Shown here: positions 2,842 to 49,587 of the stretch, piece by piece
Position numbering within the stretch: position 1 is the first letter of the stretch
Layout of the letters: each line of letters opens with the position of its first letter
NCBI RefSeq assembly: GCF_023016265.1
Contig: NZ_CP095412.1
Location: 248,001 to 312,000, forward strand
Source of the DNA: Blastococcus sp. PRF04-17
GTDB lineage: Bacteria > Actinomycetota > Actinomycetes > Mycobacteriales > Geodermatophilaceae
Length of the DNA stretch: 64,000 nucleotides
Direction of reading: 5' to 3'
Position numbers and translations under genes: made by a program
Notes under the pieces: model-generated
Database searches by the model: none
Told to the model about the DNA's origin: nothing
The model's input: only the letters and a program-made list of their open reading frames with translations

Positions 2842-3123
2842 TCAGTCGTCGCGGTCCACGATCTGGCCGAAGATCGCGACCCGTCCCAGGCTGATCCCGC
2901 CGGTCGTGACGGCCTCCACGGCCTCGGTCCCGGCCGGCAGCGGGACGACGACGACGCCGTCCTCCGCCGGGTGCTCGGAGAGGAACCGGCGGTCGAAGTC
3001 GTAGGTGCGGACCAGCGCGACGTCGGTCGGGCCGACCACCACCAGGTTGGTGCGCATCGGTGCGCCGACGGTGTCGGCGACCACGTCGCAGATCAGGGCC
3101 AGCACGCGCCGCTCCGCCGGGGG
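2842..3123 (-). pseudogene. Displaced 3' part of the sigma-like membrane protein
   Basis: In the -1 frame relative to the main reading, sequence from about 3123 to the stop at 2842 encodes a coherent C-terminus: RRVLALICDVVADTVG, then NLVVVGPTDVALVRTYDFD, ending in FGQIVDRDD. It has no start codon of its own. Inserting one C in the coding-strand run (GGCCCCCGG to GGCCCCCCGG) joins it to the upstream frame, and the combined length becomes an exact multiple of three (637 codons). It is therefore the tail of the same gene, not a separate one. Confidence 0.65.
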
Positions 3124-4751
3124 CCGGCCGGGAGCACCGCGCGGCCGCAGTCCGCGCCCTGCACGGGCCCGTCGCCCGGTGCGGGCAGCAGCCAGTGGCT
3201 CTCCAGGATCACCGCGCCGCTGGGCACCGTCACGGTGACGACGGCGGCCTGACCCGAGCCCTCTGCCGGCACGCTGCCCACCCACTGCGCGGCCACCTCG
3301 ACGTCCTCCCGGGGCAGCCCGACCTCCCTCAGGACGCGCTCGGCGGCGTACTCGGCGGCCTGCCGGCCCGTGGCGTCGGGCGTTCCGCGCGGATAGTCGA
3401 TGGCCACCTCCCCCCACGTGCCGTCGAGCACGGTCATCGACCACGAACTCATCGGCTCGCCGTCGGGACCTCCGTTCCTGGCGCGGAACGCCAGGGCACC
3501 GCCGAACGGCAGCCCGCGCTCGGTCAGGCGGACGACGGCGATGCCCTCGTCGGTCCGGACCGGCCGGAACTCGCGCGAGATGCTGCCGTCGGCGGCGATC
3601 TCGGGTCGCTCGGAGACCTCGACGACGTCGTCCTGGGCGGCGACCACGACCAGCAGCCCGGCGTCGGGATCGAGCAGGGCCGAGGGCCAGCCCGCCTCCA
3701 GGGTGGTCGGCTCCGTCGCCGGCCGCATCTGGTCGGCCGACGCCCCCGACGGCCCGGTCAGCCAGACCGCAGCCATCGTCCCGTGGGTCGAGCCGCCACC
3801 CCAGGGCTGCGCGGGGATCACGACGGGCCGGCCGACGAGGAACGCCCATCGCCCGGACGGCACGTCGCCGGCGAACACCACGTGCCGGCCGTCGACCGGG
3901 CTGTCCACGGCGTCGGGGGACGCGGTGGCCGGGTCCAGCCAGGGAACGGCGCGCAGCGCCTCGAGGAAGGCCTCGTCGGCGGCGAGCGAGCCGCGGGTGG
4001 GCCGGTCGAAGACGTCCTGGCGGGTGGTGATCCCGCCGGTGCCGGCGACCGGCCCGCGGTCGGGAGCGGACCCGCCGGCGGCCCGGGGTCCTCCCTCCGT
4101 GGCGGAGGCGCCGAGCGCGACGGGCACGGCCGTGACGACGGCGACGGCCGCGACCGCGACGGCCACCGCCCGCCGCACCCGGCGGTGGACGGCCGCGTCA
4201 CGGACCAGCCACCAGCCGAGCGAGGCGCCGTCCCCGGGTGGCCCGGCCGCGTCGGCGAGTGCGCGGAGCCGGCGCCGCAGCTGCTGCTCGGCGGACTCGA
4301 GCGGGCTGGGGACGGCGATCTCGGCCGCCAGGCGGGTCAGGCCGGCCGCCGTCCACCTGCGGGCGGTGGCGTCCGGAACCCCCATGACGCTCGCCGCCTC
4401 CGCGTCGTGCAGGCCCTCGGAGCAGCGCAGGACGACGGCGGCGCGGAGGTGTCCGGGCAGGGCGAGGAGGGCCCGCAGCACCTCGTCGCTCCCCGGTCCG
4501 AGCCGGCCGGGCCTGCTCCAGCGCGTCGGCAACCGGCTGGCCACGGTCCTGACGAGGGTGTGGCGGGCGACGTCGGCGGGGGCGTCCCGTCGGGTTCCCC
4601 GCTGCCAGGAGCGGTGGGTCCGCAGCAGCGCCCTGCGCACGAGGCGGTCGGCGGCCCGGCGGTCGCCGGTGAGCAGGAAGGCCAGCCGCAGCAGGGCGGG
4701 CTGCTCCGCGGCGACGAACCCGGCGAAGCGATGCTCCGCGTCGTCGTCCAT
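3093..4751 (-). CDS. ECF sigma-70-like protein with transmembrane segment and C-terminal domain (frameshifted near 3119)
   Basis: As sequenced the frame gives 552 residues from ATG 4751. Residues about 10-160 resemble SigE-type ECF factors: a region-2-like LLRLAFLLTGDRRAADRL and a region-4 helix-turn-helix (LRALLALPGHLRAAVVLRCS, then DAEAASVMGVPDATARR). A hydrophobic helix rich in Val and Ala follows at about residues 205-225, then a long domain that would lie outside the membrane. There is no anti-sigma zinc-finger motif. The reading ends in an arginine/glycine-rich tail without family character, because one base appears to be missing in the G5 run at 3119-3123. Adding it joins the next entry and gives 636 residues. 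Either a membrane-tethered sigma factor or a degenerate sigma domain reused as an anchor is possible. Confidence 0.7.
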   Translation of the reverse strand: MDDDAEHRFAGFVAAEQPALLRLAFLLTGDRRAADRLVRRALLRTHRSWQRGTRRDAPADVARHTLVRTVASRLPTRWSRPGRLGPGSDEVLRALLALPGHLRAAVVLRCSEGLHDAEAASVMGVPDATARRWTAAGLTRLAAEIAVPSPLESAEQQLRRRLRALADAAGPPGDGASLGWWLVRDAAVHRRVRRAVAVAVAAVAVVTAVPVALGASATEGGPRAAGGSAPDRGPVAGTGGITTRQDVFDRPTRGSLAADEAFLEALRAVPWLDPATASPDAVDSPVDGRHVVFAGDVPSGRWAFLVGRPVVIPAQPWGGGSTHGTMAAVWLTGPSGASADQMRPATEPTTLEAGWPSALLDPDAGLLVVVAAQDDVVEVSERPEIAADGSISREFRPVRTDEGIAVVRLTERGLPFGGALAFRARNGGPDGEPMSSWSMTVLDGTWGEVAIDYPRGTPDATGRQAAEYAAERVLREVGLPREDVEVAAQWVGSVPAEGSGQAAVVTVTVPSGAVILESHWLLPAPGDGPVQGADCGRAVLPAGPRRSGACWP

Positions 4752-4811
4752 GTCCGCTCCCGTGCCGTCAGGAAGTGCGTCCCCTGACCATGGTGACTCC
4801 CGGGAGCCGGA

Positions 4812-6085
4812 TCAGGCGCGGTTGACCGCGTCGGTCAGGACGTCGGAGGTGAGCCCGATCTGCCAGTCGCGGGCGCCCCCGGCGCGGAGGGCCTCGATCA
4901 CGGCGGAGCTGTCCCGGGGCTCGGGCGGGCTCCACATGATCCGGCGGACCAGGTCGGGGGAGAGGATGTTCTCGACCGGGACCGAGTGCTTCTCGGAGAG
5001 CTCCGCGAGCCCCGCCCGCGCCACCTGCAGGCGCGTCGCGGCGGCAGGGTCCCGATCGGCCCAGCGGTTCACCGGCGGCGGCCCCTCGCCGGGCTTGCTG
5101 TGCAGCGGCAGCTCGGCCTCGGGCAGCGCCCGGCCGCGGGCCAGGGCGCTGAACCAGGTGGCGACGAGCTTGCGGTTGGCCCGGCCGCGGAAGACCGGCA
5201 GCTCGAGCAGCGCGCCCTCGTTCGCCGGGTCGGCCTGCACGGCCGAGACCATCGCCGAGTCGGGCAGCACCCGGCCGGGCGCGACGTCGCGGCGGCGGGC
5301 CATGTCGTCGCGGGCCTGCCAGATCGAGCGGAGCATGCCCAGCTGCCGACGGCTGCGCAGGCCGTGCACCCCCGACGTCCGGCGCCACGGGTCGGCCTTC
5401 GGCGGTGGCGGGCCGGCGGCCAGGATCGCCTCGAACTCCTGGCGGGCCCAGTCGGTCTTGCCCTGCTCCTCGAGGATCTCGGCCAGTGCGTCGCGCAGGT
5501 CGACCAGGACCTCCACGTCGAGGGCGGCGTAGACCAGCCACTCCTCCGGCAGCGGCCGGGTGCTCCAGTCGGCCGCCGAGTGGCCCTTCTGCAGCGAGTA
5601 GCCCAGCAGCGACTCGACGACGGCGCCGAGGCCGACCCTCGGCAGGCCGGCCAGCCGGGCGGCGAGCTCGGTGTCGAAGACCCGCCGGGGCACCAGGCCG
5701 ATCTCGGCCAGGCAGGGCAGGTCCTGGTTGGCGGCGTGCAGCACCCACTCCGTGTCGGCGATCGCGGCCTGGATCACCGACAGGTCGGGGAGGGGGACGG
5801 GGTCGACGAGGCCGGTGCCCGAGCCGTTGCGGCGCAGCTGGACGAGGTAGGCACGCTGCCCGTACCGGTAGCCCGATGCCCGCTCGGCGTCGACGGCCAC
5901 GGGACCGGAGCCCGCCGCCAGCGCCGCGGCGTAGTCGACCAGCTGGGCCGAGTTCTCGATGACCGGGGGAGCCCGTCGCGGGGAGCCAGCAGTGGCCGCG
6001 CGGGAGGGATCTCGGCAGCCGGCGTCGTCCCTGTCTGCCCCGGCGGGGTCGTCGTCTCCGGCTGGGGAGTGGCCTCGGTGCTCAG
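4812..6085 (-). CDS. rnd: Ribonuclease D (HRDC-containing 3'-5' exonuclease), frameshifted at 5965-5969
   Basis: This 3'-5' exoribonuclease trims stable RNA. The DEDD exonuclease fold shows VAVDAERASGYRYGQRAYL, then LHAANQDLPCLAEIG with FDTELAARL and ALDVEVLVDLRDAL; an HRDC-like region with R(R)QLGMLRSIWQARD follows. The conserved start ENSAQLVDYAAALAAG lies in one frame and its extension back through PPARPLLAPRDGLP in another. One C missing from the coding-strand C5 run (+ strand G5 at 5965-5969) explains this, and restoring it gives 424 residues. No ATG, GTG or TTG lies sensibly before the second part. CTG at 6085 has a good Shine-Dalgarno (AAGGTGG) and is the start used here, with moderate confidence. 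A GTG at 6166 inside the preceding gene is the alternative. Confidence 0.82.
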
Positions 6086-6143
6086 TTGCCGTCCACCTTC
6101 TCGCCGGTCCTCGTCGGTCGGGCCGCCGGGCCCGTAACCGATG

Positions 6144-6776
6144 TTAGAGAGTCTCGCCGCCGGCACGGTCGGAGGGACCCAGCAGCCGCACCCCGGGCGG
6201 CGGCAGGCCGGCCGCGTTGCCGAGAACCTGCAGCCAGGCGAGCAGATGCCGGTCGAGCGCGGTGTCCTCCGCGGTCCAGGAGGCGCGCATCTCGACGTCG
6301 ACGGTGTGCTCCGGGCCGGCGAGGTCCCCGAAGCGCGTCGACGCGGTGCGGGTCACCGTGCCGCCCACGTTGTGGTGCCCGGCGCCGCTCTCGATCAGCG
6401 CGTCGGTCAGCCAGCTCCACGCGACCTCGGAGAACATCGAGTCGTCGACGAGCTCCTCGTCGGTGGCCGCCGACAGATACCCCACGCAACGGGTGGTCCC
6501 GTTCCAGGCCTCGTGGCCCTCGGGGTCGAAGAGCACGATGAAGCGGGCGCTGGCGACCTCGAGGTCGTCGTCGGAGCCGTCCCCCTCGGCGACGTGGGCG
6601 CCGACCGCGTGCGCCCAGGGCGCCAGGCGCTGGGGGGCGGGGATGTGCTCCAGGACGATCTCGGGCCGGGTCCGGACGGTGGCGAGCGCGGCCAGGGCAG
6701 CCCGGAACTCGACGGGCGGTTCGTCCCCGTTCGTGTCCCTGCCTCTGCTGGCGCCGGCCAGACTCGTGGGCTCCAC
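6144..6776 (-). CDS. DUF3000 domain-containing protein
   Basis: A 210-residue actinobacterial protein of unknown function. Recognisable blocks are FRAALAALATVRTRPEI, LAPWAHAVGAHVA, RFIVLFDPEGHEAWNG and SEVAWSWLTDAL; the last third matches the family pattern TVTRTASTRFGDLAG. It sits between hemE (divergent) and rnd (downstream, same strand), the order seen in mycobacteria. GTG 6776 is chosen because the minus-strand -10 box TACCCT (6783-6788) lies only six bases before it, consistent with a leaderless transcript. A longer in-frame reading would run back into hemE and is rejected. No catalytic motif is visible, so no activity is proposed. Confidence 0.85.
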   Translation of the reverse strand: MEPTSLAGASRGRDTNGDEPPVEFRAALAALATVRTRPEIVLEHIPAPQRLAPWAHAVGAHVAEGDGSDDDLEVASARFIVLFDPEGHEAWNGTTRCVGYLSAATDEELVDDSMFSEVAWSWLTDALIESGAGHHNVGGTVTRTASTRFGDLAGPEHTVDVEMRASWTAEDTALDRHLLAWLQVLGNAAGLPPPGVRLLGPSDRAGGETL

Positions 6777-6894
6777 GAGCGCAGGGTAGGCCGCGGATCG
6801 GAACATCGCTCCCGACGCGCCGCAACCGATCCATGACCCAGCATCACCGGGACACGGCCGAGGGGCGCCCGGGCGTCTGGGAGAATGGCCGGTC

Positions 6895-7962
6895 GTGACC
6901 CCCGCCCCCGAGCTGCCACCCGCCCCCCAGCTGCCCCCGGGCGAGTCGGACCTCGTCAGAGCCGCCCGCGGCCTGCCCGTGCAGCGCACCCCGGTCTGGT
7001 TCATGCGGCAGGCGGGCCGGTCGCTGCCCGAGTACCGGGCGCTGCGGGCCGGGACGGCGATGCTCGACGCCTGCCAGGACCCCGACCTCGTCACCGAGAT
7101 CACCCTGCAGCCGGTCCGGCGGCACGGGGTCGACGCCGCGATCCTGTTCTCCGACATCGTGCTGCCGCTGGTCGTGGCCGGCATGGACATCGAGATCAAG
7201 CCCGGCATCGGCCCGGTGGTGGCGCAGCCGGTGCGATCGGTCGCCGACGTCCATGCCTTGCCACTGCTCGACCCCGACCGCCTCGACTTCCTGGCGACCG
7301 CCGTGCGGTCCCTGGTGCGGGAGCTGGGGCCGGTACCGCTCATCGGGTTCGCCGGCGCGCCGTTCACCCTGGCCACCTACCTGATCGAGGGCGGCCCGTC
7401 GAAGGAGCACGCGCGCACGAAGGCGTTCATGTACGCCGAGCCGGAGGCGTGGGCGCACCTGATGGACCGGCTCGCGCTGAGCGCGGCCACCTTCCTCAAG
7501 GTGCAGCTGGACGCCGGGGTCTCGGCGGTCCAGCTGTTCGACTCCTGGGCCGGTGTGCTGTCCGCCGCCGACTACGAGCAGCGCGTGCTGCCGTACTCGC
7601 GCGAGGTCTTCGAGGCGATCGGTTCCCGCGACGTGCCGCGGATCCACTTCGGCGTGGGCACCGGCGAGCTGCTCCCGCTGATCGGTCAGGCGGGCGCCGA
7701 CGTCGTGGGGGTCGACTGGCGGGTGCCCCTCGACGAGGCCGCCCGACGGGTCGGCCCCCATCGCTCGCTGCAGGGCAACCTCGACCCGGCCGTCCTCCTC
7801 GCCGACCGGGCCACCGTCGACCGGGAGGTGCGCCGCGTGGTCGAGCAGGGCCGGGCCGCGCGCGGGCACGTCTTCAACCTCGGGCACGGCGTCCTGCCCG
7901 ACACCGATCCCGGGGTGCTCACCCACGTCGTCGAGCTGGTGCACGAGCTCAGCGCCCGATGA
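6895..7962 (+). CDS. hemE: Uroporphyrinogen decarboxylase
   Basis: Cytoplasmic haem enzyme, 355 residues, that decarboxylates uroporphyrinogen III to coproporphyrinogen III. The signature [16 protein letters not shown] is near residue 35; [41 protein letters not shown] and the C-terminal [15 protein letters not shown] are all present. GTG 6895 is the start; GAGAAT at 6881-6886 could be the -10 of a leaderless mRNA. The stop overlaps the hemY start as ATGA, so the two are translationally coupled. The divergent DUF3000 gene shares the 118-base promoter region. Confidence 0.96.
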
Positions 7963-9326
7963 CGCGTCTGGTCGTCGTCGGTGCCGGGATCACCGGCCTG
8001 GCCGCCGCCTTCGAGTGGCGGCGCCGGCGGCCGGACGACGAGATCGTCGTCCTGGAGGCCGGCGACCGGATCGGTGGCAAGCTGCACCGCGTGCGCCTGG
8101 CCGGGCACTGGTACGACACGGGGCCCGAGGCGGTCCTGGCCCGCGTCCCGGAGGCCGTCGAGCTGGTCGAGGCGCTCGGACTCGGCGACCAGCTCGTCGC
8201 GCCCGCCACGACCCAGGCATCCGTCGTCCTGCCCGGTGGGCGCCGTCGCCTGCCGGCGGGCACGGTGCTGGGCGTCCCGGCGTCCGCCGACGACGTCGCC
8301 GGCTTCCTGTCCCCGGAGGGCGTGGCCCGGGTGCGCGCCGAGGCCCAGCTGCCTCCGGCGGCCGTCGACGGCGACGTCGCCGTCGGCGCCCTGCTGCGCG
8401 AGCGCCTGGGCGACGAGGTCGTCGACCGCCTCGTCGAGCCGCTGCTCGGTGGGGTCTACGCGGGGCGGGCCGACGAGCTGTCCCTGGCCGCCACGATGCC
8501 TGCCCTGGCCGCGCACCTGCCCGCCGCCGGGTCCGTGCTCGCCGCCGCCGCGGCCGCGCGCGACGCCGGAGCCCGCAGCCGCGGCGACGCCGACGGCCCG
8601 GTGTTCGCGACGGTGCGCGACGGCATCGGATCGCTGCCCGGGGCGCTCGTCGCGGCCGCCCGCGCCGACGTCCGGCTCCGCACACCCGCGCAGGGCCTGC
8701 GCCGGACCCCTGGCGGGTTCGAGCTGTCCGTCGGCGCGGCCGCGGCGCCAGAGCGGCTCCTCGCCGACGCCGTCCTCGTCACCGCGCCGGCGCAGAAGGC
8801 CGCCCGGCTGCTCGGCGAGGTCGCACCGGACGCCGTCGAGCAGCTGCGCGGCATTCCGTACGCGTCGATGGCCGTCGTCGCCATGGCCTTCCCGGCGCAG
8901 GACGTCGACGCCGGCTCGGGCCTGCTCGTGCCGCCGGTGGCCGGGCGGCTGGTCAAGGGCGTCACCGTCTCGTCGGCGAAGTGGCCGCATCTGGCCGGGG
9001 ACGGGCCGGTGCTCGTCCGGTCGTCGGTGGGCCGGTTCCGCGACGAGGCGGAGCTGCAGCGCCCGGACGACGACCTGACCGCCGCCGTGGTCGCCGACGT
9101 CGCCGCCCTGCTGGAGCTGTCCCGCCCCGAGCCGCTGGAGACGCGCCTGGTGCGGTGGGGCGGCGGGCTGCCGCAGTACCTGGTCGGTCACCAGGACCGG
9201 GTGGACGCGATCCGGGCCGCGGTCAGCGAGGTGCCGGGGCTGGCGATCGCCGGGGCGGCCTTCCGCGGGGTCGGCGTCCCGGCCTGCATCCGGGACGCGC
9301 TGCACGCCGTCGACGCGCTGAGCTAA
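7959..9326 (+). CDS. hemY: Coproporphyrinogen III / protoporphyrinogen oxidase (HemY/CgoX)
   Basis: FAD-dependent oxidase of 455 residues. In Gram-positive bacteria this family oxidises coproporphyrinogen III to coproporphyrin III in the coproporphyrin-dependent haem route. The N-terminal dinucleotide-binding motif is [16 protein letters not shown], followed by [31 protein letters not shown] and the C-terminal [15 protein letters not shown] complete the family pattern. ATG 7959 overlaps the hemE stop. Together with hemQ at 14712 this gives three of the pathway's late steps in the window; hemH/cpfC is not here. It converges with the LuxR-type gene, whose last four bases overlap its stop. Confidence 0.94.
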
Positions 9327-12144
9327 CCGCCACCGAGCATCGCCGTCGCGAGCTGCGTCCGGTTCGCCAGTCCCAGCTTGGCCAGCACGTTCCGGACGTG
9401 GCTCTCCACGGTGCGCTCGGACAGGAACAGCCGCTCGGCGATCTGCCGGTTGGTCAGGGCCTCGGCCACGAGCGCGGCGATCTCCCGCTCCCGGCCGGTC
9501 AGCGGGTCGGCCTCCCGTGCGGCCCGGGCGGCACGATCCACCAGTGCGGCCGCCCGCCGCTGCGGCCCGGGCATGCCCAGGCGGCGCGCCTCGGCCTGTG
9601 CCGTCCGCGCCAGGTCCCGGACCCTGGGCAGGCACGCCGCCCCGTCGCGTTCGAGCAACGCCCCGGCCAGCCCCACCCGGTCGTTGACGGCGGCCGGCCG
9701 GGCGCCGGTGCGGAGGTCGACCCGCAGGGCCTCCTCGAAGTGCGCGACGGCCTCGTCCCAGGCGCCCCGGACGGCGGCGAGCCGGCCGAGCAGGACCTCG
9801 ACGGACCCGCAGCAGTAGACGCCCGCGCCGCCGGCGTCCATGGGGCCGGCGGCGACGAGGCGGCCCAGGGCCTCCGCGGCCTCGACGTCCCCGAACTCCT
9901 CGACCAGCGGCACCAGCGTCTCGGCCACGCCGGCCGACTCCGCGAAGTCCGGCTCGGACACCCGCGGCCGCAGCTGCGCGTACCGGGCCGCGGCCTCCTC
10001 CCGGCGGCCGCCGACGAGGGCGACGACCGCTCGGCTGGCCTGCACGATGGGGACGTCGTCGGCCAGGTCCATGAGTCGGACCGCCTCGCCGTCGAGGTCG
10101 TGGGTGTTGCCCGTGACCAGGGAGTACTGGTAGAGGAACGCGCCCGACATGCCGGCGGCGGACAGGTCCTGGGCGAGCTCGGTGGCGCCGACCACGCGGG
10201 CGTGCTCGTTGAGCGCGAGGGCCTCGTCGAACCGGCCGTGCAGCGCCGCGACCGATGCGCGCAGCCGCAGGTCGTGCCAGCGGACCAGGGGCAGCCGGGT
10301 GCGCTCCGCCAGCGCGGTGACCCGCGCCAGCTCGTCCTCGACGGTCGCCATGTCGCCGTGCTCCAGCGCCGCGTCGATCCGCCACTTGGCTCCCCAGAGC
10401 TCCACCAGCGGCTGCCCGGTGGCCGCCCCGTGGTGGAAGGCCAGGCGGCCGAGGCGCATCCGCTCCTCCCGGCCGAGCGCGGCGGGGCTCACCTTCATCC
10501 GCGCACGGACGGCGTCGATCACCGCCGCGGGATCACCGCTCTCCTCCGCCAGTGCCAGCGCCTCGACCGCGTGCCTCGTCGAGGCGCCCAGCCGGCCGGC
10601 GTCGGCCAGCACCGAGGCCGACTGGGCGAGGAGGCGGGCCCGGAGGGACGGCTGGTCCTCGACCGCCGGGTCGACGAGGGCCCGCTCGCACATGCGGAGC
10701 ACCGCCGGGGGAAGCCCGGGGCCGCCACGTCCTGCACCGTGAGCGCGGCGGGGGCCAGCAGGTCGTTCCGTCCGCACTCGGCGGCCGCGTCGGAGGCGGC
10801 CGTGGCGTGGCCGAGGCTCTCGGCGAACCGCCCGGCGCGGAACTCGGCCCTGGCGAGTGCCAGCAGGAGCTCGGCCCGATCGGCGGGGTCGACCCCGGCG
10901 CGCTGCGCGGCCCCCCACGCCATGGCGAGGAACCGGGCGGCCTCGTCGAAGGCGAGGGAGCGGGTCGCCGCCTCCGCCGCGCGGCGCGCCCAGGCCGCCG
11001 CCCGCCGCAGCGTCCGCGGCTCCGAGGTCGCGCGCAGCCAGTGGCCCGCCACCGGCCCGGACGCGTGGTCGTCGTCCTCGGCGAGCGGTTCCAGGGCCTC
11101 GGCCGCGCGGCGGTGCAGCTCCTCCCGCGCGCTGGGGGAGAGGTCGTCGTAGATGGCCCCCCGCACCACGGCGTGCACGAACCGTCGCCTGCCCGGGGCG
11201 TCGGGGACCGCGGCCAGGACGCCGGCCCGCACGGCGGCGTCCAGCCCGTCGCGCACCTCGTCGGGCGGGCGGCCGGTCACCAGCCCGAGCTGCCCGGGAT
11301 CGAGCTCCTCGCCCAGGACGGCGGCCGTGTCGAGCAGGTCGAGCACGGCCGGGGACAGGGCCGACAGCGTCGTCCTGACCAGATGGCGCAGCTCCTGGCC
11401 GTCCTGCCCGTTCCCCGTCGCGGGCGCCCGCGCGATCGCGCGCAGGTACAGGGGGTTGCCGCCGCTGCGCCGGAGCGCGAGCCGGACCGCCTCCTCCGGT
11501 GCTCCGCGGAGATAGGCCCGGACGTCGTCCTCGGTGAGCGGCGCGAGGGACAGCACGCGGCTGGTGGGCCAGCGCAGCAGGTCCGGCAGCGCCCGGTCCA
11601 GCGGGCTCCCGACCGCCGCGCCGGACGGGTCGCGGTAGGTGGCGACCACCAGCAGCCGCGAGCGCGGCAGCTCACCGGCGAGGTGTCGCAACAGCCGCAG
11701 TGATGTCTCGTCGGCCCAGTGCAGGTCCTCCAGGACGACGACGAGGCCGTCCGCCTCGGCGGCCTCGAGCAGCGCCTCCGCGGTGCCCGCCACCAGCGCG
11801 AACCGGGCGGATTCGGGGTCGGGAGGTCCCCCGCCGGGGACGTCGAGGCCCGACCGGGTCCCGGCGAGCGCTGCCCGGACACCGGGCAGGGTGCGCGCCA
11901 CCCGGCGCCACGGCCACATCGGCGGGGCTCCGGGGTCGTCCACGCACCGCCCCCAGACGACGGCCGGCGCCCGTGCCGTGGCCTCCTCGACGGTGCGGGT
12001 CTTCCCGATGCCGGCGGGTCCGGAGAGCAGGAGCAGCCCGCCCCGGCCGGCCGCGGCCGCGGCGATGCCGGCCGCCAGCTCGGCGAGCTCGGCGGAGCGG
12101 CCGACGAAGGCGGCGTCCTCGGCCGGCCGAGCGGCGAGCGCCAC
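9323..12144 (-). CDS. LuxR-family ATPase transcriptional regulator (LAL/MalT-like), frameshifted at 10707-10711
   Basis: A large regulator of about 940 residues once one base is restored. The N-terminal AAA ATPase has [10 protein letters not shown], Walker A GPAGIGKT and Walker [13 protein letters not shown]. The middle is alpha-helical and TPR-like; the C-terminus is a LuxR helix-turn-helix ([20 protein letters not shown], then [19 protein letters not shown]). The ATPase lies in one frame (12144 to about 10711) and the C-terminal half in another, from the coding CTTCCCCCGG run onwards; a sixth C makes the total an exact multiple of three. GTG 12144 has GATACT seven bases upstream. Three 13-base repeats lie where an autoregulatory site would be. 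It probably controls the divergent 12307-13376 genes; the effector is unknown. Confidence 0.88.
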
Positions 12145-12176
12145 GGTGCGCAGTATCCATGCAGGCGGGCGCCGTG

Positions 12177-12215
12177 CGTACCGGCTTTCCGTACCGGCTC
12201 TCCGTACCGGTCCCC
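12177..12215. repeat. Three tandem 13-bp repeats (CGTACCGGYYYYC-like), candidate iteron operator
   Basis: Three head-to-tail copies: CGTACCGGCTTTC, CGTACCGGCTCTC and CGTACCGGTCCCC, at 12177, 12190 and 12203. They lie 33-71 bases upstream of the LuxR-family start and 92-130 bases before the divergent gene at 12307. Exact 13-base phasing in a promoter region suggests a multi-site binding platform, most simply for the adjacent regulator. That assignment is inference. Confidence 0.6.
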
Positions 12216-12306
12216 GCGCTTCCACGGATGTCCGGGGGTCTCCCGCGCCGCATCGTTCGCGGTGCCGGGGCCGGAGTCGCCGGCCCCCGAACGAAGGAGC
12301 ACCCCC

Positions 12307-12855
12307 GTGTACGCCACCATCCACCCGTATCGGCGCCCGGCACCCGCCGGCACCGACCCCGTCCGAGCCGTGCTCGCCGGCGCGGAGCCCGCCGGAGCCG
12401 TCGTGGTCGAGCACCAGGAGGGGGACGAGGGCACGGTCGTCGCGCTCTGGCCGGACGGGACGGACGTCCCGGCCGGCAGCCGTGTCTACTCCCTCGTCGA
12501 CCGCCTGGACGGGGTGGCCGCCGGTCGCAGCCCGCTGTTCGCGCAACTCACCTGGCTCAACGGCGCCGGCGACCCCGCGGTCGCGCAGGCGGCCGAACGC
12601 GGTGGCCGGGAGCGGATCCACCCCGCGATCCGGGACGTCGACGGCCTCGTCGCCGCCCTGGTGTTCCGGTCGCCGGACGACCGGATCGTCGTCGTCGGCC
12701 TCGCGACCGGGCTGGAGACCCACGCCGAGGTGCAGGACCGGATCGTCCGCACGCAGCTGCTGCCCGGTGAGGACGCGAGCCTGCTGCCGGGCGCGGACCG
12801 CGTGGAGGTCGGCCGGGTGCTCCGCGCCGACGTCCCGGCGGAGGTGCGGTCGTGA
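12307..12855 (+). CDS. Hypothetical protein, possibly ABM-like (dimeric alpha+beta barrel)
   Basis: A 182-residue soluble protein that I do not recognise by name. It begins MYATIHPYRRP and near residue 85-160 has a second segment (RERIHPAIRDVDGLVAALVF, then VVVGLATGLETHAEV). This looks like the antibiotic-monooxygenase (ABM) pattern of a strand, a GL-containing helix-to-strand turn and a display strand; two halves of this kind would make a fused dimeric barrel. GTG 12307 is preceded by AAGGAG at good spacing. It overlaps yceI by GTGA, so the pair is co-translated, and it diverges from the LuxR-family regulator. A role in handling a small organic substrate is only a guess. Confidence 0.6.
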   Translation: MYATIHPYRRPAPAGTDPVRAVLAGAEPAGAVVVEHQEGDEGTVVALWPDGTDVPAGSRVYSLVDRLDGVAAGRSPLFAQLTWLNGAGDPAVAQAAERGGRERIHPAIRDVDGLVAALVFRSPDDRIVVVGLATGLETHAEVQDRIVRTQLLPGEDASLLPGADRVEVGRVLRADVPAEVRS

Positions 12856-14193: not shown

Positions 14194-14715
14194 ATGCGCC
14201 AGACCAGTTTCGCCGCGATGCAGTGCTCGCTGGCCCGATCGCTCGAGGTGGTCGGCGACTGGTGGACGCCGCTGATCCTGCGCGACCTGTACCTCGGCCT
14301 CGACCGGTTCGACCAGCTGGTCGACGACCTCGGCATCTCCCGCAACCTGCTCGCCGACCGGCTGGAGACGCTCACCGCCGGGGGAGTGGTGGCGAAGGAG
14401 GCCTACCAGGAGCGCCCGGCCCGGTACCGGTACGTCCTGACCGACGCCGGCCGGGAGCTGGTGCCCGTGCTGCTCGCGCTCACCGCCTGGGGCGACCGCT
14501 GGGCGACGCCGGACGGCGGCCCGCCCCTGCTGCTCCGGCACACCGGGTGCGGCGCGCGCACGACGCCGACCGTCTGCTGCTCCGAGTGCCGGGCGCCGCT
14601 GGCCGCCGACGAGGTGGCGGTGGCCGCCGGACCGGGTGGTCGGACGGCGCCCGGGACGGCGCTGCTCGAGGGCGTGCTCGGTCGCGGCCCGCGACCGGGG
14701 ACAATGGGCGCATGA
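14194..14715 (+). CDS. HxlR/MarR-like winged-helix transcriptional regulator
   Basis: A 173-residue regulator. The HxlR winged helix is clear: [40 protein letters not shown] and [16 protein letters not shown], then [17 protein letters not shown]. The C-terminal 50 residues carry HTGCGARTT and CCSECRAPL, a four-Cys set that could hold zinc or sense redox state. The stop overlaps the hemQ ATG (ATGA), so the regulator is translationally coupled to a haem-synthesis gene. hemQ also has its own -10 candidate (GACAAT, 14700-14705). Likely targets are itself, the divergent SnoaL-like gene and perhaps hemQ. Confidence 0.87.
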
Positions 14716-15437: not shown

Positions 15438-15439
15438 AT

Positions 15440-15477
15440 GGAGTGCCAGGGCGCGGAGAATGCGCCCCTGGCACTCC
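15440..15477. terminator. Bidirectional hairpin terminator between hemQ and msrB
   Basis: GGAGTGCCAGG at 15440 pairs with CCTGGCACTCC at 15467-15477 and the stem continues inward with GCGC, giving a long GC stem with one bulge. It fills the gap between two convergent stop codons. There is no U-tract on either side, as is common for actinobacterial terminators. Confidence 0.75.
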
Positions 15478-15483
15478 GCAAGC

Positions 15484-15900: not shown

Positions 15901-15999
15901 GCGCTCAACGGTACGGCGGCAGCGCCACCCTGCGTGTGACGGGTGAGCGGCCCGGGCCCGCCCGGGAGGCGGGCCTCCGCCGTGCCGGAGACTGGAGGG

Positions 16000-16950: not shown

Positions 16951-19631
16951 TCAGAGCGCGTTCTGCCCGATGGCGATCCGGTCGATCCAGCCGCCCTGGG
17001 AGTTCCAGCCCGACCAGCCGCTGTTGGGGGCGACCTGCCACTTGTGCCAGAGCGCCTTGTCGGAGCCCCGTGCGAAGATCTCCAGCCGGCCGTCGTTGTT
17101 CTGGTCGACGTCGAGCATGTCGATCCAGCCGCCCTGGGAGTTCCAGCCCGACCAACTGCTGTTCGGTGCCACCTGCCACTTGTGCCAGACGGCGCCGTCC
17201 GCGCCGCGGGCGAACACCTCGAGCCGGCCGTCGAGGTTCTTGCCGACGTCCAGCATGTCGATCCACCCGCCCTGGGAGTTCCAGCCCGACCAACTGCTGT
17301 TCGGTGCCACCTGCCACTTGTGCCACAGCGCGCCGTCCGAGCCGCGGGCGAAGACCTCCAGCCGGCCGTCGTCGTTGCGCCCGACGGCCAGCCGGTCGAT
17401 CCAGCCGTCCTGCGAGTGCCAGCCCGACCAGCCGTTGTTGGGCGCGGTCTGCCACTTGTGCCACAGCGCCTTGTCCGAGCCGCGGGCGAAGACCTCCATG
17501 CGGCCGTCGGCGTTCTGCCCGACCGCGAGGTCGTCGATCCAGCCGCCCAGGGACTCCCAGCGGGACCAGCCGCTGTTGGGTGCCACCTGCCAGATGTGCC
17601 ACAGCGCCTTGTCCGAGCCGCGGGCGAACACCTCCATGCGACCGTCGAGGTTGCGGGACACGGCGATCTGGTCGACCCAGCCGCCGAGGGAGTGCCAGGC
17701 CGACCAGCCGGCGTTCGGGGCGACCTGCCACTTGTGCCAGACGGCTCCGTCCGAGCCGCGGGCGAACAGCTCCATGCGCCCGTCGGCGTTCCGGCCCACC
17801 TTCAGGATGTCGATCCAGCCGCCCTGCGAGTTCCAGCCCGACCAGCCGCTGTTGGGGGCGACCTGCCACTTGTGCCAGACGGCTCCGTCCGAGCCGCGGG
17901 CGAAGATCTCCAGCCGGCCGGTGGTGCCGACCACCGCCTGGCGGACGGCGGCACCGGCGTCGAGGAACCGGCCGAGGTCCTTGCCCGGGTCGGCGGTGAG
18001 GGCCGAGCCGGTGACGGTGAGGATCCGCCGGACGTCGGCGTGGCTCAGGCCGGGGTTGACCGCCAGCATCAGCGCCGCGGCGCCGGCGATCTTCGGCGTG
18101 GCGCCCGAGGTGCCGCCGAAACCGTTGCGGTATGCGGTGTCGCTGCTGTCCAGGCAGGTCAGGTCGTGGTCGGCATCGCCGGGGCAGGACACCGTGATCC
18201 GCGGCCCCCAGTTGCTGAACCACGCGCGCTTGTTCTGCGTCGCGTGGTAGGCCGTCGCCCCGACCAGGATCGAGCCGGTCTCCGGGATGGCCTTGCCCGA
18301 GTCGTCGAGCCCGGCGTTCTTGTCGCCGTTGCCGGCCGCGACGCAGACGACCACACCGGCGGCGATCGCGGTCCGGATGGCGGCGTTCACCGACGGGACC
18401 TGCTCGTAGTTGCCGAACGCGCCGGTCTGCACCTCCAGCACGATCACCTTGCGGCGGCCGTTGCTGTTCTGCGTGCGGACCCAGTCGATGCCGCGGGCCC
18501 ACGCGTTGCCGCCCAGGCCGGGGCTCGTCCCGGAGTCGGCCTGCACGGCCCAGAGCTCGGCGTCGTGGGCGACGCCGGACATCCCCCGGCCGTTCACCGC
18601 CGCACCCGCGAGGCCGGCGACCGCCGTGCCGTGGGACACCGAGCCGCCGTGGGTCACGACCGCGGTGCCGTCGAACGAGTTGTACGTCCGCCGGATCTTC
18701 GCCGACAGGTCCTGGTGCGACGTCCGGTAGCCCCAGTCGATGTCGGTGATGACGACGTTGCGTCCCGAGGACCGCGACCAGGCGGTGTTCACCGCGCACC
18801 GGAAGACGTACCACTGGTTCTCGAGGCCGGTCGAGGGGTTGACGACGACCTGACCGCTCGTGCCGACCAGCGGGTCCGACAGCGGCCCGGCCGGTGCGAC
18901 GACGGTGTCCGGAGCGGTGTCGACGACGGTGTTCCCGGCGGCGGTCGTGGTGGTCGTCGCCCCCGTTCCCCGGGGCGTCACCACCGTCGGGGGAGCGCGA
19001 CGGGGACGGCGACCGCGCGCTCCACCTCCGGCAGGTCGCTGAGCTCTTCGGCGATCCGCGCGGTGTCGGCGTCGTCGGCGAAGTGCAGCGTCATGAACTG
19101 GGCGAGCAGCGGTACGTCCATGCCCTGCTCGCGCGCCACCCGCTGGGCGGCCACGGCCTCCTCGCGCGGCGTCGTGAACGTCGGCTCGGCCTGCACGAGC
19201 CCGTTGCGCTGCAGGATCTCGTTCATCGCGTCGAGGTCGTCGCCGTCGGCGGCGACGGTCGGCGCGGCCGCGCCGGTCCGGCTCAGGGCCGGCGAGACGT
19301 CCTCGCGGAACTGCACCTCGACCACGCCCGGCTCGTAGGCCCGGTTGCCGCCCGCCCCTCCGGGCGGACCGAACCGGGGCAGCTCCCCGCCGGGCAGCGG
19401 GCTGACCGGCGAGGACGCCGACCGCGGCACCGGCATGGCGCCGTCCGGCACGGAGGCGGCGGACGCGGCCGCGCGGGCACCCGGCATGGGCATCCCGCCG
19501 GTGTCGGACTGCCCCATGCTCGGTACCGGCATCTCGCCGTCGGGGGGCGACGCCGCAGAGGCGCGGGACGACGGCTGGGGCATGCCGTCCCTGTCGTCGT
19601 GGCCGTTCGGGTTGGTGCCTGGGACGGTCAT
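16951..19631 (-). CDS. S8 subtilisin-like peptidase with C-terminal seven-bladed PLL-type propeller (frameshifted at 18989-18993)
   Basis: About 893 residues when one base is restored. The N-terminus (ATG 19631, AGGAGA upstream) is Pro/Gly/Met-rich with repeated DGxMPxP and shows no signal peptide. A propeptide-like region (YEPGVVEVQFREDVSP) follows. The catalytic domain has Asp in VVITDIDWGY, His in SVSHGTAVAGLAG, the oxyanion Asn in VVVCVAAGNGD and Ser in GFGGTSGATPKIAGAAA. Seven 46-residue blades of the GRxEVFARGSDxALWHKWQ type then run to the last residue. The propeptide and protease lie in different frames that join if the coding C5 run (CTCCCCCGA) gains a C. It probably cleaves extracellular or surface proteins with a glycan-binding tail; the export route is unclear. 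Confidence 0.85.
16954..17919 (-). repeat. Seven 138-bp coding repeats (46-residue propeller blades)
   Basis: Seven consecutive blades, each 46 residues, begin with GRLEIFARGSDGAVWHKWQ or a close variant, continue with APNSGWSGWNSQGGW, and end in a variable segment such as ILKVGRNAD. DNA identity between blades is high, especially blades 5 and 6. The pattern matches the PLL-like lectin family of beta-propellers, which also have seven blades. The protein stops right after blade seven, which would close the ring. Confidence 0.85.
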
Positions 19632-25429: not shown

Positions 25430-25759
25430 ATGCCGCTCTACCTGACGAGGTTCAGCTACACGCCCGAGACGTGGGCCCGCATGATCAGGAATCCGGAGGA
25501 CCGCCGGAAGGCCGCGCAGGCCTACATCGAATCCGTCGGCGGGTCGCTGCACGGGTTCTGGTACGCCTTCGGAGCCTACGACGGGCACACCCTGTGGGAG
25601 GCGCCCGACGACGTGTCGATGGCCTCGGTGGCCCTGGCGATCGGCAGCGGCGGGGCGATCAAGGCGATGGAGACGACCGTCCTGCTCACCGTCGAGGACA
25701 CCATCGAGGCGTTGACCAGGGCGCAGGGCATCTCCTACCGCGCCCCGGCGACCGCGTAG
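25430..25759 (+). CDS. GYD domain-containing protein
   Basis: A 109-residue protein. The family signature appears as FWYAFGAYDGHTLWEAPDD, with PLYLTRFSYTPETWARMI at the N-terminus and GGAIKAMETTVLLTVED after it; it is a ferredoxin-like alpha+beta fold of unknown role. TACCGT near 25394 may be its -10. Its last 25 bases overlap the convergent RibD-like gene. Confidence 0.85.
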   Translation: MPLYLTRFSYTPETWARMIRNPEDRRKAAQAYIESVGGSLHGFWYAFGAYDGHTLWEAPDDVSMASVALAIGSGGAIKAMETTVLLTVEDTIEALTRAQGISYRAPATA

Positions 25760-26477
25760 CGGGTGAAGAGCATCCCGTCCTCCTCGAGCAGCTGACGCAG
25801 GTCGAGCCGGGCCGGGGTGCCCAGCGCCGCCTCCAGCAGCCGCGACTCGCCGCCGACGAGGGCGGGGGAGATCGACAGGTCGAGCTCGTCGACGACGCCC
25901 GCGGTCAGGGCCGCGTGCAGCAGCTGCGGGCCGCCCTCGCAGACCAGCTGCTCGAGCCCGCGCTCGGCCAGCCGGTCCAGCGTCGTGGGCAGGTCGACGT
26001 CGTCGTCGCCGCAGACCAGGACCTCGGCGCCGGCGTCGGCCAGCGCCGCCCGGCGGTCCGGGTCGGCCGCCTCGCACGTCACGCAGATCGTGGGAGAGGG
26101 CCCGCCCAGGAGCTTCCCGCCCGGGTCCAGCGACGCTCGTCCCGAGACGACGACGATGGGCGCGGTCGGCGGCCGCCCCAGCGCGGCACGGAGCCGGCCG
26201 ACCCGCGTCTCCGGCGTGATCGGGCCGTACCCCTCGGCGGCCGCCGTCCCGTGACCGACGAGGACGCCGTCCGCGAGCGCCCGCAGCAGGTCGAAGATCC
26301 GCTTGTCGCCGGGCGAACCGAGCGGCTCGCTGCGGCCGCCCACGGTCACCGCGCCGTCCAGCGAGGCGATGAAGTTGACCCTCAGGTGCCGCCCGGCGGC
26401 AGCCGGTAGGCCTCGACGAGTCCGGCCTGGTCGAGTTCGGAGTCCAGGAGGGCCGGGTCGGGGAGGAGGCGGCGCAC
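25735..26477 (-). CDS. Pyrimidine reductase family protein (RibD C-terminal domain), frameshifted near 26382-26396
   Basis: A stand-alone riboflavin-type reductase domain of about 247 residues when one base is restored. N-terminal VRRLLPDPALLDSELDQAG with VEAYRLPPGG (GTG 26477) is in one frame and ends at a TGA (26382). LRVNFIASLDGAVTVGGRSE and the rest, including GDKRIFDLLRALADGVLVGHG and LVCEGGPQLLHAAL, are in another. Relatives have both parts in one chain. One missing base between 26385 and 26396, for example a third G in GGGCGGC, accounts for this. It begins two bases after the treZ stop, so it is the second gene of a treZ operon. NADPH reduction of a pterin or pyrimidine substrate is likely. 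Confidence 0.75.
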
Positions 26478-26478
26478 G

Positions 26479-36327: not shown

Positions 36328-36334
36328 CGTCGGC

Positions 36335-38461
<2,127 letters not shown>

Positions 38462-39854: not shown

Positions 39855-39985
39855 GAGGAGGGGAGTATCCCCCCGCGGCAGCATCGTCATCACGAGGTCC
39901 CATGGCCTCCGGTGCTGCCGATCGCACGCTGCCGGCGTGCGGTGGGAGAGACCTCCGGTGCTGACACGGCTGGTCCCCCCGGAGG
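39855..39985 (+). ncRNA. yybP-ykoY manganese riboswitch of the second terC gene
   Basis: GGGGAGTA (39860-39867) and GGGAGAGACC (39944-39953) are the conserved loops. P2 is GGCAGCA/TGCTGCC, an inner GAGG/CCTC hairpin follows, and P3 is CGCACGC/GCGTGCG. CCTCCGG (39952-39958) complements CCGGAGG (39979-39985), the ribosome site of the downstream gene, the same design as the first copy. Only about 25 bases separate it from the preceding stop codon, so it probably acts on a shared transcript at the level of translation. Confidence 0.83.
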
Positions 39986-39995
39986 AAACGCCCGC

Positions 39996-41089
39996 ATGGA
40001 GCTCCCCGTCTGGTTCGAGATCGCGACGTTCGTGGGGCTCACCGCTCTGCTGCTCGCCGATCTGGCCATCGTCGCCCGTCGTCCGCACGAGCCCTCGCTG
40101 AAGGAGGCAGGGCTGTGGGTGAGCTTCTACGTCAGCCTGGCGCTGGCTTTCGGCCTGCTGATGCTCGCCTTCACCAACGGGACGTACGCGACCGAGTTCT
40201 ACGCGGGCTGGCTCACCGAGTACTCGCTCTCGGTGGACAACCTGTTCGTCTTCGTGATCATCATGGCCCGCTTCCAGGTCCCTCGGAAGTACCAGCAGGA
40301 AGCGCTGATGATCGGCATCATCATCGCCCTGGTCCTGCGCGGGATCTTCATCCTGCTCGGTGCCGTGGTCATCGAGCGGTTCGTGTGGGTCTTCTACATC
40401 TTCGGCGTTTTCCTCATCTACACCGCGATCAACCTGGTCCGGCACCGCGGGGAGGACGAGGACTACGAGGAGAACGCCTTCATCCGGCGGATGCGCAAGG
40501 TCCTGCCGATCACGAAGGACTACCACGGAGCCAAGATCCGGGTCACCGAGAACGGCAAGAAGATGTGGACGCCGATGATCGTGGTGATCCTGGCGCTCGG
40601 GACGACGGACCTGATCTTCGCCCTCGACAGCATCCCGGCGATCTTCGGCCTGACCCGCGAGCCGTTCATCGTCTTCACGGCCAACGTCTTCGCGCTGATG
40701 GGCCTGCGCCAGCTCTACTTCCTGCTCGGCGGCCTCCTGAAGCGGCTCGTGTACCTCTCCCTCGGCCTGGCCGTCATCCTGGCCTTCATCGGCGTCAAGC
40801 TGATCCTCGAGGCGGTGCACGAGAACCAGCTGCCGTTCGCCGGCGAGCGCGAGCCCATCGAGGCGGTGCCGCACATCCCGATCTGGCTCTCGCTCTCGAT
40901 CATCCTGGGCGTCCTGGTCGTGGCGACGGTGGCCAGCCTGATGTCGACCCGCGGCGCGGGGTCACCGTCGACGAGCCGGTCGTCGACGAGGAGACGGCGA
41001 AGCAGGTGCCGACGGGCGGACCCGAGGCCGCGGCCGCGGCCGAGGCCAAGCTGGCCGAGGAGGTCGACGAGGAGACCTCCCGGCGCTGA
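39996..41089 (+). CDS. TerC family integral membrane protein, second copy (frameshifted near 40947-40962)
   Basis: A paralogue of the preceding gene, about 364 residues when one base is restored. Motifs: TEYSLSVDNLFVFVIIMARF, LRGIFILLGAVVIERFVWVF, TDLIFALDSIPAIFGLTREP and LMGLRQLYFLLGGLLKRLVY. After the last helix (ILGVLVVATVASLMSTR) the frame drifts into an Arg/Ser/Pro-rich tail running past the next start. In the neighbouring frame a coherent acidic tail (VTVDEPVVDEETAKQVPTGG, ending EEVDEETSRR) stops at 41089. One extra base, for example in the GGGG at 40958-40961, joins them. The membrane part is intact either way, so function may survive. Confidence 0.88.
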
Positions 41090-44475: not shown

Positions 44476-45476
44476 ATGGACGTCGTCGAGGTCACGCCCA
44501 GCTTCGAGCAGTACGCCTACACGTTCGGCGGCGTGGCCCCGCTGCGGCGGGTGCCCCCGGGACGGCGCTGCGGGTGTGGTCCGAGGACGCCTTCAACGGG
44601 GCCCTCCGGTCGACCAAGGACCTCAGCAGCGAGAAGGTCGACCTTCGCTTCGTGAACCCGCAGACGGGGCCGTTCTGGGTGGAGGGCGCCGAGCAGGGCG
44701 ACACCCTCGCGTTGCACTTCGTGGCGATGGAACCGGCGCGGGACTGGGGCGCGTCGGCCACGATCCCGTTCTTCGGCGGCCTGACCAGCACCGACCGTGT
44801 CGCCACGCTGCAGGAGCCGCTGCCCGACACCACCTGGATCTACGAGCTGGACCGGGTGCGCAACACGGTCACGTTCGCGGCGGGCCGCACCGACTTCTCC
44901 GTCGAACTGCCCGTCGAGCCGATGCTCGGCACCGTCGGGGTCGCGCCGGCCGGGGGAGAGGTGCGCAGCTCGCTGGTGCCCGAGCGGTTCGGCGGGAACA
45001 TGGACACCCCGCAGATGCGCCCCGGCACGACCTGCTTCCTGGGCGTCAACGTCGAGGGCGCGCTGTTCTCCATCGGGGACGGCCACTACCGGCAGGGCGA
45101 GGGCGAGGCCTGCGGAACCGCGGTCGAGGGCGCCATGACGACGACGCTGATCGTCGACCTCATCAAGGGTGGGGCGCCGCTCTGGCCGCGGCTGGAGGAC
45201 GACACGCACTGGATGACCGTGGGCTCCAGCCGGCCGATGGAGGACGCCTGGCGGATCGGGATGGTGGAGCTCGTGCGCTGGTTCGGGGAGCTCTACGGGT
45301 TGCACCCCATGGACGCGTACCAGCTGCTCTCGCAGCTCACCGAGGCGCCGATCGCCAACGTCGTGGACGCCAACTACAGCGCCGTCCTGAAGGCGCGCAA
45401 GGCGCTCCTGCCCGGGGCCACCGCCTACGGCGGCCTGCACGACGAGCTGCGCAGTCGCGCAGCGTCCCTGCTGTGA
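44476..45476 (+). CDS. Acetamidase/formamidase family protein, frameshifted at 44554-44558
   Basis: About 333 residues when one base is restored; members hydrolyse acetamide or formamide to ammonia. The first 27 codons (MDVVEVTPSFEQYAYTFGG, then VAPLRRVPP) are in one frame and the rest (LRVWSEDAFNGALRSTKD, GPFWVEGAEQGDTLALHF, ATIPFFGGLTSTDR, NMDTPQMRPGTTCFLGVN and LFSIGDGHYRQGEGEACGTA) in another. A sixth C in GTGCCCCCGGG joins them as RVPPGTALRVW. TAGGGT at 44465-44470 is five bases before the ATG. If the lesion is real the protein is lost, because no good start follows it. Confidence 0.85.
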
Positions 45477-46258: not shown

Positions 46259-46640
46259 CCGACGTCCTGGACTGCCGCGCCCTGGGGCGGGCGACGCTCG
46301 CCCGGCAGCAGCTGCTGGAGCGGGTGCACCGGCCGGTGGCCGCGACGCTGGAGCACCTCGTGGGGCTGCAGGCGCAGGTGCCGCGAGTCCCGCACCTCGC
46401 GCTCCGGGACCGGCTGGCCGGCTTCGAGCCGGGCGAGCTGGACGGGCTGATGACCGCGCGTGCGGTCGTCCGGACGCAGCTGGTGCGGACGACGCTCCAC
46501 ACGGTCACCCCGGGACCCCCGCGCCGGTCCGCTTCCTGACCGGGTACGACGACGTCGTCCTGTCGCATGCGGACCGTCCGCCCGTGGTGGCCGACGCCGA
46601 TCACGTCCCGCTCCAGGGCGGCGCCGGGGGCTGGTCGTGC
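46255..46640 (+). pseudogene. Winged-helix DNA-binding-domain (HTH_42/AlkX-like) gene with internal deletion
   Basis: The first 85 or so codons (DVLDCRALGRATLARQQLLE, then TLEHLVGLQAQVPRVPHLAL and LTARAVVRTQLVRTTLHTVT-like) match the N-terminus of the winged-helix/YcaQ-like family. Directly after a C5 run (46516-46520), in another frame, RFLTGYDDVVLSHADR matches the C-terminal motif of the same family (FLPEYDNxLLSHADR), which normally lies some 200 residues later. The middle is therefore missing. The frame begins with CTG overlapping the SDR stop (CTGA). The gene is clearly dead unless the assembly is wrong. Confidence 0.75.
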
Positions 46641-46677
46641 GCACGACGTGCGGTTGCTGACCCGCTAGCGTTCGGCC

Positions 46678-46959: not shown

Positions 46960-46960
46960 G

Positions 46961-47494: not shown

Positions 47495-48141
47495 GGGCGC
47501 TCGGTGCCGAGGGTGGTGTCCTTGCCGTGCCCCGGATAGACCCAGGCCTCGTCCGGGAGGACGTCGAAGAGCCGCTGCTCCACGTCGTCGATCAGGCTGG
47601 CGAAGCGCTCCGGGTCCTGCTGGGTGTTGCCGACGCCGCCGGGGAAGAGGCTGTCGCCGGTGAAGACGTGGACGCCGCCGTCGCCCTGCGCCCGGTAGAC
47701 CAGCGCGATGCTGCCCGGCGTGTGACCGCGCAGGTGCACGACCTCCAGGGTGTGCGCGCCGACGGTCACGGTGTCGCCGTGCTCGACCGTCCGGTCGACG
47801 TCGACCGGGAGGTCGTCGGCGTCGGCCGCGTGCGCGACCGCCTGGGCGCCGGTCGCCCGCAGGACGTCGGGCAGCGCGCGGTGGTGGTCCCAGTGCCCGT
47901 GCGTCGTGACCACCGTGCGCAGGTCGGCGTCGCCGATCAGCCCGCGCAGCGTCTCCGGCTCGGCCGCCGCGTCGACGAGCAGCGCCTGGCCGGTGGCGGT
48001 GTCCCGCAGCAGGTAGGCGTTGTTGGCCATGTCGCTCACCGCGACCTTGGAGATGGTCAGGCCGGGGAGTTCGCGGACGTCCGGCGGGCCGCCCACCGCC
48101 ACATCGCCGGTGTAGGTATCGCCAGTGTAGGTCTGGCTCAT
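47461..48141 (-). CDS. MBL-fold metallo-hydrolase (glyoxalase II-like)
   Basis: A 226-residue metallo-beta-lactamase-fold protein. The metal site is VVTTHGHWDHHRALPDVL; VVHLRGHTPGSIALVYRA, HVFTGDSLFPGGVG and WVYPGHGKDTTLGTERPHL supply the other ligands. It resembles hydroxyacylglutathione hydrolases. The N-terminus carries a tandem TYTGDTYTGD, a 15-base duplication. ATG 48141 has CGGAGT upstream. It is divergent from the amidase (49 bases apart). Confidence 0.92.
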   Translation of the reverse strand: MSQTYTGDTYTGDVAVGGPPDVRELPGLTISKVAVSDMANNAYLLRDTATGQALLVDAAAEPETLRGLIGDADLRTVVTTHGHWDHHRALPDVLRATGAQAVAHAADADDLPVDVDRTVEHGDTVTVGAHTLEVVHLRGHTPGSIALVYRAQGDGGVHVFTGDSLFPGGVGNTQQDPERFASLIDDVEQRLFDVLPDEAWVYPGHGKDTTLGTERPHLAEWRSRGW

Positions 48142-48190
48142 CGGGACTCCGTTCGGAAAGTGTCGGCGGTCGCCGTTACGGTCCAGAGCC

Positions 48191-49587
48191 ATGGACGCTA
48201 GCCGAGTCGTCGGGCTGCCCGCCGTCGAGATCGCCGCGCTCGTGCGCGCCGGTGAGGTTCCGGCGGTGGACGTCGTCCGGGCGCACCTCGACCACATCGA
48301 CGCGGTCGACGCGCGGGTCGGGGCCTTCCGTGTCGTCCGCCGCGAGGAGGCGCTCGCCGAGGCGCAGGCGATCGACACCGCGCTGGCCCGCTTCGCGCTG
48401 CCGCTGGCCGGGGTGCCGATCGCGGTCAAGGACAACGTCGCCGTCGCGGGGCAGGTCTGCACCGACGGCTCCCCGGCGTGCACACGAGGCCCGGAGGACA
48501 AGGACCACGCCGTCGTGGCCCGCCTGCGCCGGGCCGGCGCGGTGGTCGTCGGCATCACCCGCGTGCCGGAGCTGTGTCTCTACGCCGCCACCGACGGCCC
48601 TGGCACCGTCACCCGCAACCCCTGGGACACGGCACGGTCGGCGGCGGGGAGTTCCGGAGGGAGCGCCGCTGCCGTGGCGTCCGGCTGCGTGCCGCTGGCG
48701 CACGGCAACGACGGCATGGGTTCCTTGCGCCTGCCGGCCGCGGCCTGCGGTCTCGTCACCCTGAAGCCGGGCCGCGGCGTGGTCCCCGCCGGGATCGGAC
48801 GCGACGACTGGTCGGGCATGGCGGAGAACGGTGCGCTCGCGACCACCGTCGGCGACCTCGCCGTCGCCCACGCGGTGATGGCGGGGGAGGAACCCGGCCC
48901 GCTGCCCGACCCCGGCCGCCCGCTGCGGGTCGCGGTGTCGACGCGCTCACCCCTGCGCGGCGTCCGTGCCGACCGGGAGGCTCTGGCGGCGGTCGACCGC
49001 ACCGTGGCGGTTCTCGTCGACGCGGGTCACACCGTCGTCCGGCGCGACCCCCCGATCGGGGACGCCACAGGGGCGGCCGCCATCGCGCGCTGGCTCGCTG
49101 GCGCCCACGACGACGCCGAGCACCTCGGCATCGACCCGGCCGACCTCCAGCCGCGCACCCGCACCCATGCCCGGCTCGGCCGGATGATCCGCCGGGCCGG
49201 GCTGATCCGCCCCCGCACCCAGGAACGCTTTCGCGACCGGATGACCGCCTTCTTCGGCGACGACGTCGACCTGCTCCTCAGCCCGATCACGGCCGGCCCG
49301 CCCCTGCCTGCGCGGCCGTGGCACGAGCGGTCCTGGGCGGCCAACATGGCGGCGAACATGCGCTGGGCGCCGTGGGGTGCGGCGTGGAACTACGCGGGCC
49401 TCCCGGCGACCGTGCTGCCGGCCGGCACGCGGCCGGAGGGGCTTCCTCTCTCGGTCCAGTTCGTCGGCCCCCGGGGGCCGAAGGACGACTACTCTGGCTG
49501 GCCGGAGAGCTGGAACGCCGCCACCCCTGGCGTCGCTACGCGCCCGTGTTCGACCCCACCGCTTCCTCGGCCGCCTCGGCCGCGTGA
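48191..49587 (+). CDS. Amidase (amidase-signature family), frameshifted at 49468-49472
   Basis: About 465 residues when one base is restored. The Ser-cisSer-Lys triad is in VPIAVKDNVAVAGQ (Lys), AAGSSGGSAAAVASG (cis-Ser) and GNDGMGSLRLPAAACG (Ser nucleophile). Up to LPLSVQFVGP the frame is normal; the end (LLWLAGELERRHPWRRYAPV, then FDPTASSAASAA) is one frame over. CGGCCCCCGGGGG needs one more C or G to join them. Without it, the chain runs on to 49720 with an unrelated tail. Upstream GTGTCGGCG-N8-TACGGT (48160-48182) resembles the uvrC promoter. The amide substrate is unknown. Confidence 0.87.

Follow-up and report, generated by a model that had tools for sequence, protein, structure and literature searches.

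Indels and the genes split by them have been documented in nanopore assemblies, where they are enriched at homopolymers, and in the parts of these reports considered here the correction of frameshifts is described to result in a higher completeness of single-contig genomes (PMC9262707, PMC8103633, PMC8011154). The window analysed here, a stretch of 64,000 bases with a GC content of 73.4%, corresponds to positions 248001-312000 of the 4,585,415-base (4.585-Mb) single-contig genome of a soil bacterium of the Blastococcus kind. For this genome, the completeness is 95.89 and the contamination 0.31, compared to a completeness of 99-100 in the six single-contig relatives listed. Eight genes of the window are split by a change of the reading frame, and with a probability of about 95% these breaks reflect deletion-type errors in the consensus of the assembly. 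As text the feature is real, but as biology it most likely is not.

An earlier note on this DNA had described eight genes, each with a frame change equal to one absent base, and had placed six of the breaks at a coding-strand run of five C followed by G. Both descriptions agree with the sequence, and intact copies of the genes were identified in relatives. On the reverse strand, the runs are located at 3119-3123 in a sigma-like gene read in two frames (2842..4751), at 5965-5969 in the ribonuclease D gene rnd (4812..6130, the upper end being approximate), at 10707-10711 in the gene of a LuxR-family regulator (9323..12723), and at 18989-18993 in a gene coding for a subtilase (Peptidase_S8; 16951..19631). 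For rnd and the subtilase gene the N-terminal part lies in the other frame, while the AAA_16 and GerE domains of the LuxR-family regulator are encoded in different frames. On the forward strand, the run at 44554-44558 separates the first 29 codons of an acetamidase/formamidase gene (44476..45476) from the remainder, and the run at 49468-49472, with a run of five G directly after it, places the last 39 or so codons of an amidase gene (48179..49587) in another frame. The latter break concerns the C-terminal end, with positions 1-439 of the 445 positions of Pfam Amidase found in one frame. The two further breaks lie in a RibD_C-domain reductase gene (25735..26477, reverse strand; break at about 26382-26397, with no run of four or more nearby) and in the gene of a TerC-family membrane protein (39978..41089, forward strand; break at about 40947-40976, adjoining a run of four G).

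The earlier note had proposed a comparison with sister genomes, and here the copies of the relatives were found to be unbroken where those of the window are split. The genes for the LuxR-family regulator, the subtilase, the reductase, the TerC-family protein, the acetamidase and the amidase each match a single open reading frame of one relative in two frames. For the sigma-like gene, whose Sigma70_r4_2 score is slightly below the cut-off, a qualifying reading frame of 460-511 amino acids was present in five of the seven relatives tried, and all five match two frames meeting near 3120. A search with rnd identified 512 encoding stretches, of which 80 were kept, the best matches being Blastococcus. 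Here, PLLAPRDGL is encoded in one frame of the window and PPVIEN in the following one, with the frames meeting at the C5 run, whereas the relatives contain the unbroken PLLAPRDGLPPVIE. In the DNA alignment, in which 93 loci cover the site, all of the 14 rows shown (some genomes being present twice) are one base longer than the window. At most sites the relatives have one additional base, which is often not part of a longer run, since their codons differ. The split halves are still good matches to the relatives. Three other parts of the window (14699-15975, 33192-38458 and 62940-63853) were flagged for two frames in a six-frame comparison with shadow reading frames among the queries, and none of them was flagged again in the homology count made from predicted genes. 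In addition, an open frame of 410 codons at 6147-7376 on the reverse strand covers a DUF3000 gene and continues antisense to a forward reading frame at 6895-7962; it is a by-product of the high GC content.

Frame breaks were counted for a genome sample consisting of the window plus 20 additional places, each 40 kb long (864 kb in total, 21 stretches). An ab initio detector, a codon model allowing frame changes that was trained on 456 predicted genes of the genome and its relatives, gave 133 missing-base and 33 extra-base events, window included, corresponding to 15.4 and 3.8 per 100 kb; events were present in all 21 stretches. In the controls, 400 kb each of the relatives G012 and G017 and four syntenic sets of 80-120 kb from relatives, the values ranged from 0.8 to 5.2 for missing-base and from 0 to 3.7 for extra-base events per 100 kb (missing/extra counts of 21/8 for G012, 10/9 for G017, and 3/0, 2/3, 1/1 and 2/4 for the syntenic sets), and 80 public loci gave 2.6 and 2.1 per 100 kb. 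The final detector errs at overlapping genes, and a homology comparison was added for this reason. Among 20 scanned pieces (the longer one in each of 20 genes out of 68, with two long genes left out), the profiles of purH and RsmH were complete and that of an iron-sulfur subunit was nearly complete; these false calls are likely to be overlapping neighbour genes.

For the homology count, matches with a best identity of at least 55% and a coverage of at least 75% were kept, which reduced 1211 queries to 183 genes comprising 186,729 bases. In these genes, 21 breaks of the missing-base class and none of the extra-base class were identified; by frame class alone one missing base is indistinguishable from two extra ones, and the offset was exactly one base in 16 of the 21 breaks and larger, in the same frame class, in the other five. 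With 21 such breaks in 186.7 kb, the compared genes contain about one for every 9 kb. The thresholds leave rnd and the sigma-like gene outside the 21. Five relatives contributed 347 genes (135 from G012, 48 from G015, 43 from G013, 79 from G010 and 42 from G009), in which a single break was found, with an extra base, and none with a missing one. The breaks occur throughout the sampled genome with a frequency not reached in the relatives, and the eight in the window fit this genome-wide excess.

The sequence context of the breaks was analysed against random coding positions. A C or G run of at least five was present within 12 bases of 43 of the 133 missing-base events, compared to 6.6 expected, and outside the window the coding-strand run was C in 21 cases and G in 19. 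The CCCCCG pattern therefore holds for all six runs of the window, but not outside it; moreover, G follows the run in 34 of 42 broken cases, not clearly above the 113 of 167 intact six-base runs of relatives (Fisher p 0.13), and follows 79 of 100 intact runs in the genome itself. A special CCCCCG motif and a preference for C on the coding strand, both considered as candidates, were rejected on these two comparisons, and the C-only pattern is a small-sample feature of the window. Among the homology-defined breaks, 7 of 21 are accompanied by a run of five in the context examined, four of the seven in the window, so that the window, with C runs at six of its eight breaks, over-represents one class. 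The remaining 90 of the 133 events are near no run of five or six. At 91 missing-base events without a nearby run of five, the words CTCCC (16 compared to 3.1 expected) and CTCCCC (9 compared to 0.8) are enriched, as are GGGGA-like words; the CTCCC and CTCCCC enrichment may be a mark of context-dependent basecalling error.

Homopolymer under-calling had been proposed in the earlier note as the most likely cause, with slippage and ribosomal frameshifting as alternatives, both of which the data oppose. The artefact as such is supported, but the error is of a broader deletion type, for which C and G runs are merely the most enriched class, since about two thirds of the events lie off homopolymers and are not explained by simple under-calling. 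An intact run of six C in the window, as pointed out before, is indeed present at 57790-57795. Runs of six amount to 30-45 per 100 kb in the syntenic stretches of four relatives, compared to 21.8 in the first sample of the genome; in genome-wide samples, 25.2 were counted for G012, 17.8 for G017 and 22.7 for the genome. A depletion of runs of six or more as proof of under-calling was not decisive, the ratio of six-base to five-base runs being equally low in G017, and this, like the events off homopolymers, counts against the assembly-error explanation.

Genes that should be indispensable are also affected. Outside the window, 10 of 14 broken genes could be named from the intact copies of relatives, although some scores, RecD2 and PBP2 among them, are below curated cut-offs: methionine--tRNA ligase, a RecD2-like helicase, MshC, an MCE-family protein, a radical SAM protein, a PBP2-like protein with two breaks, glutamate dehydrogenase, an amino-acid transporter, IspG and a TatD-like nuclease. 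Cells require methionyl-tRNA synthetase, and both metG and ispG should be indispensable. Each of these two genes is present in one copy in the genome, is split there and is whole in G012 and G010. For metG, profile positions 5-308 and 309-505 are found in different frames, with only weak matches elsewhere in the genome, and for ispG the same applies to positions 1-64 and 72-354.

An untranslated gene is affected as well. The genome contains three 23S rRNA copies, one of which lacks a base at an alignment column that is invariant in the 14 other rows. The second copy has lost one base and gained one at variable columns, and the third shows neither change. Private losses at invariant columns were absent from the seven other Blastococcus rows (three from G012) and numbered 0, 1, 1, 0 and 6 in five rows of other families. 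The base loss, a single column, is supporting evidence for an assembly error. Two side observations were made on the rRNA genes. Of the operons of the genome, the one near 4.34 Mb carries several substitutions relative to the other two, most of them located in the 16S-23S spacer. In G012, one 23S gene differs from the other two in two three-base blocks, ACG/CGT instead of GAA/TTC, with their mutual pairing kept, which as a sequence pattern resembles a compensated stem change inside one genome.

According to the proposed mechanism, single bases would have been dropped from the consensus, most often in C or G runs and also in other GC-rich contexts, during an assembly from presumably long, error-prone and incompletely polished reads, the platform being one that we infer. 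Each base dropped inside a gene would make an intact gene look split, and the cell itself would carry the unbroken genes.

Of the other explanations, the one that survives best combines a genome-wide assembly error with real strain mutations in one or a few of the eight genes, dispensable ones such as those for the LuxR-family regulator and the subtilase or the end of the amidase gene. This is unlikely. A few ab initio events are also seen in relatives, and the window contains one true pseudogene, but the number of breaks, eight in 64 kb, is in line with the excess seen genome-wide, so that a second cause is not needed. The pseudogene is the remnant of an AlkZ-like DNA glycosylase gene (46264..46659, forward strand), for which the frame change at a ninth C5 run had been correctly noted: residues 4-85 and 245-302 lie in different frames, with the change near the run at 46516-46520. 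Residues 86-244 are gone in a large internal loss; therefore, the ninth run is not a like case, and the gene is a truly decayed one. The remnant adjoins the acetamidase gene and an SDR gene, and an intact reading frame of 367 amino acids is found nearby in G015.

Far less probable are real deletions that arose as replication slipped in an organism lacking MutS/MutL repair, by which many genes would now be pseudogenes. The decayed AlkZ-like gene might be taken in its favour, and slips could escape repair, as NucS-type repair is reported in the portion of a review considered here to be inactive on indels (PMC8228993). However, a NucS_C match above the cut-off was identified in the genome, so that loss of NucS repair is not the cause. 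NucS is also present in 18 of the 20 relatives searched, and with its inactivity on indels, a deficient indel repair is therefore common to relatives, yet those sampled are without these breaks. Slippage should also raise the number of extra-base breaks, whereas these make up none of the 21 homology breaks and 33 of the 166 ab initio events, at a frequency close to the range of the relatives. The split halves, as good matches, and metG and ispG, which ought to be indispensable, argue against it as well.

Even less credible is a programmed or tolerated -1 slipping of the ribosome on CCC-CCG, joining the halves in translation: the six window runs are all coding-strand C followed by G, but outside the window both strands are used, the broken runs begin in all codon phases (6, 6 and 11 for C runs of five in phases 0, 1 and 2; 8, 4 and 7 for G runs), most events are near no run of five or six, the unbroken copies of the relatives mean that no conserved site exists, and a base is absent also from an rRNA gene. 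Hundreds of real one-base deletions, even in the sole metG and ispG, bypassed by efficient transcriptional or translational slipping at many unlike sites, are just as hard to credit; were they real, the cell would have to possess some means of reading across hundreds of frame changes, and this would be startling.

Given an assembly error, the breaks are most likely unimportant as biology, and their value is one of caution: split genes, pseudogene counts and claims of gene loss from this genome are unreliable. Pseudogenes formed by replication slippage and phase-variable tracts share with the breaks the changes at homopolymers, but here the runs are of five only, the missing-base class occurs alone and indispensable genes are included. 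With programmed -1 ribosomal frameshifting, a one-base relation of the frames and a repetitive run in some genes are shared, while here no site, strand or codon phase is conserved, and the breaks affect genes unrelated to one another as well as an rRNA copy. The indel consensus errors of nanopore assemblies, in the parts of the reports considered (PMC9262707, PMC8011154, PMC8103633), differ in that most events here lie away from runs of five or six and the platform is a presumed one; they share homopolymer-enriched one-base indels, genes split genome-wide, a lowered completeness and a single contig, and by this comparison the fit is a close one.
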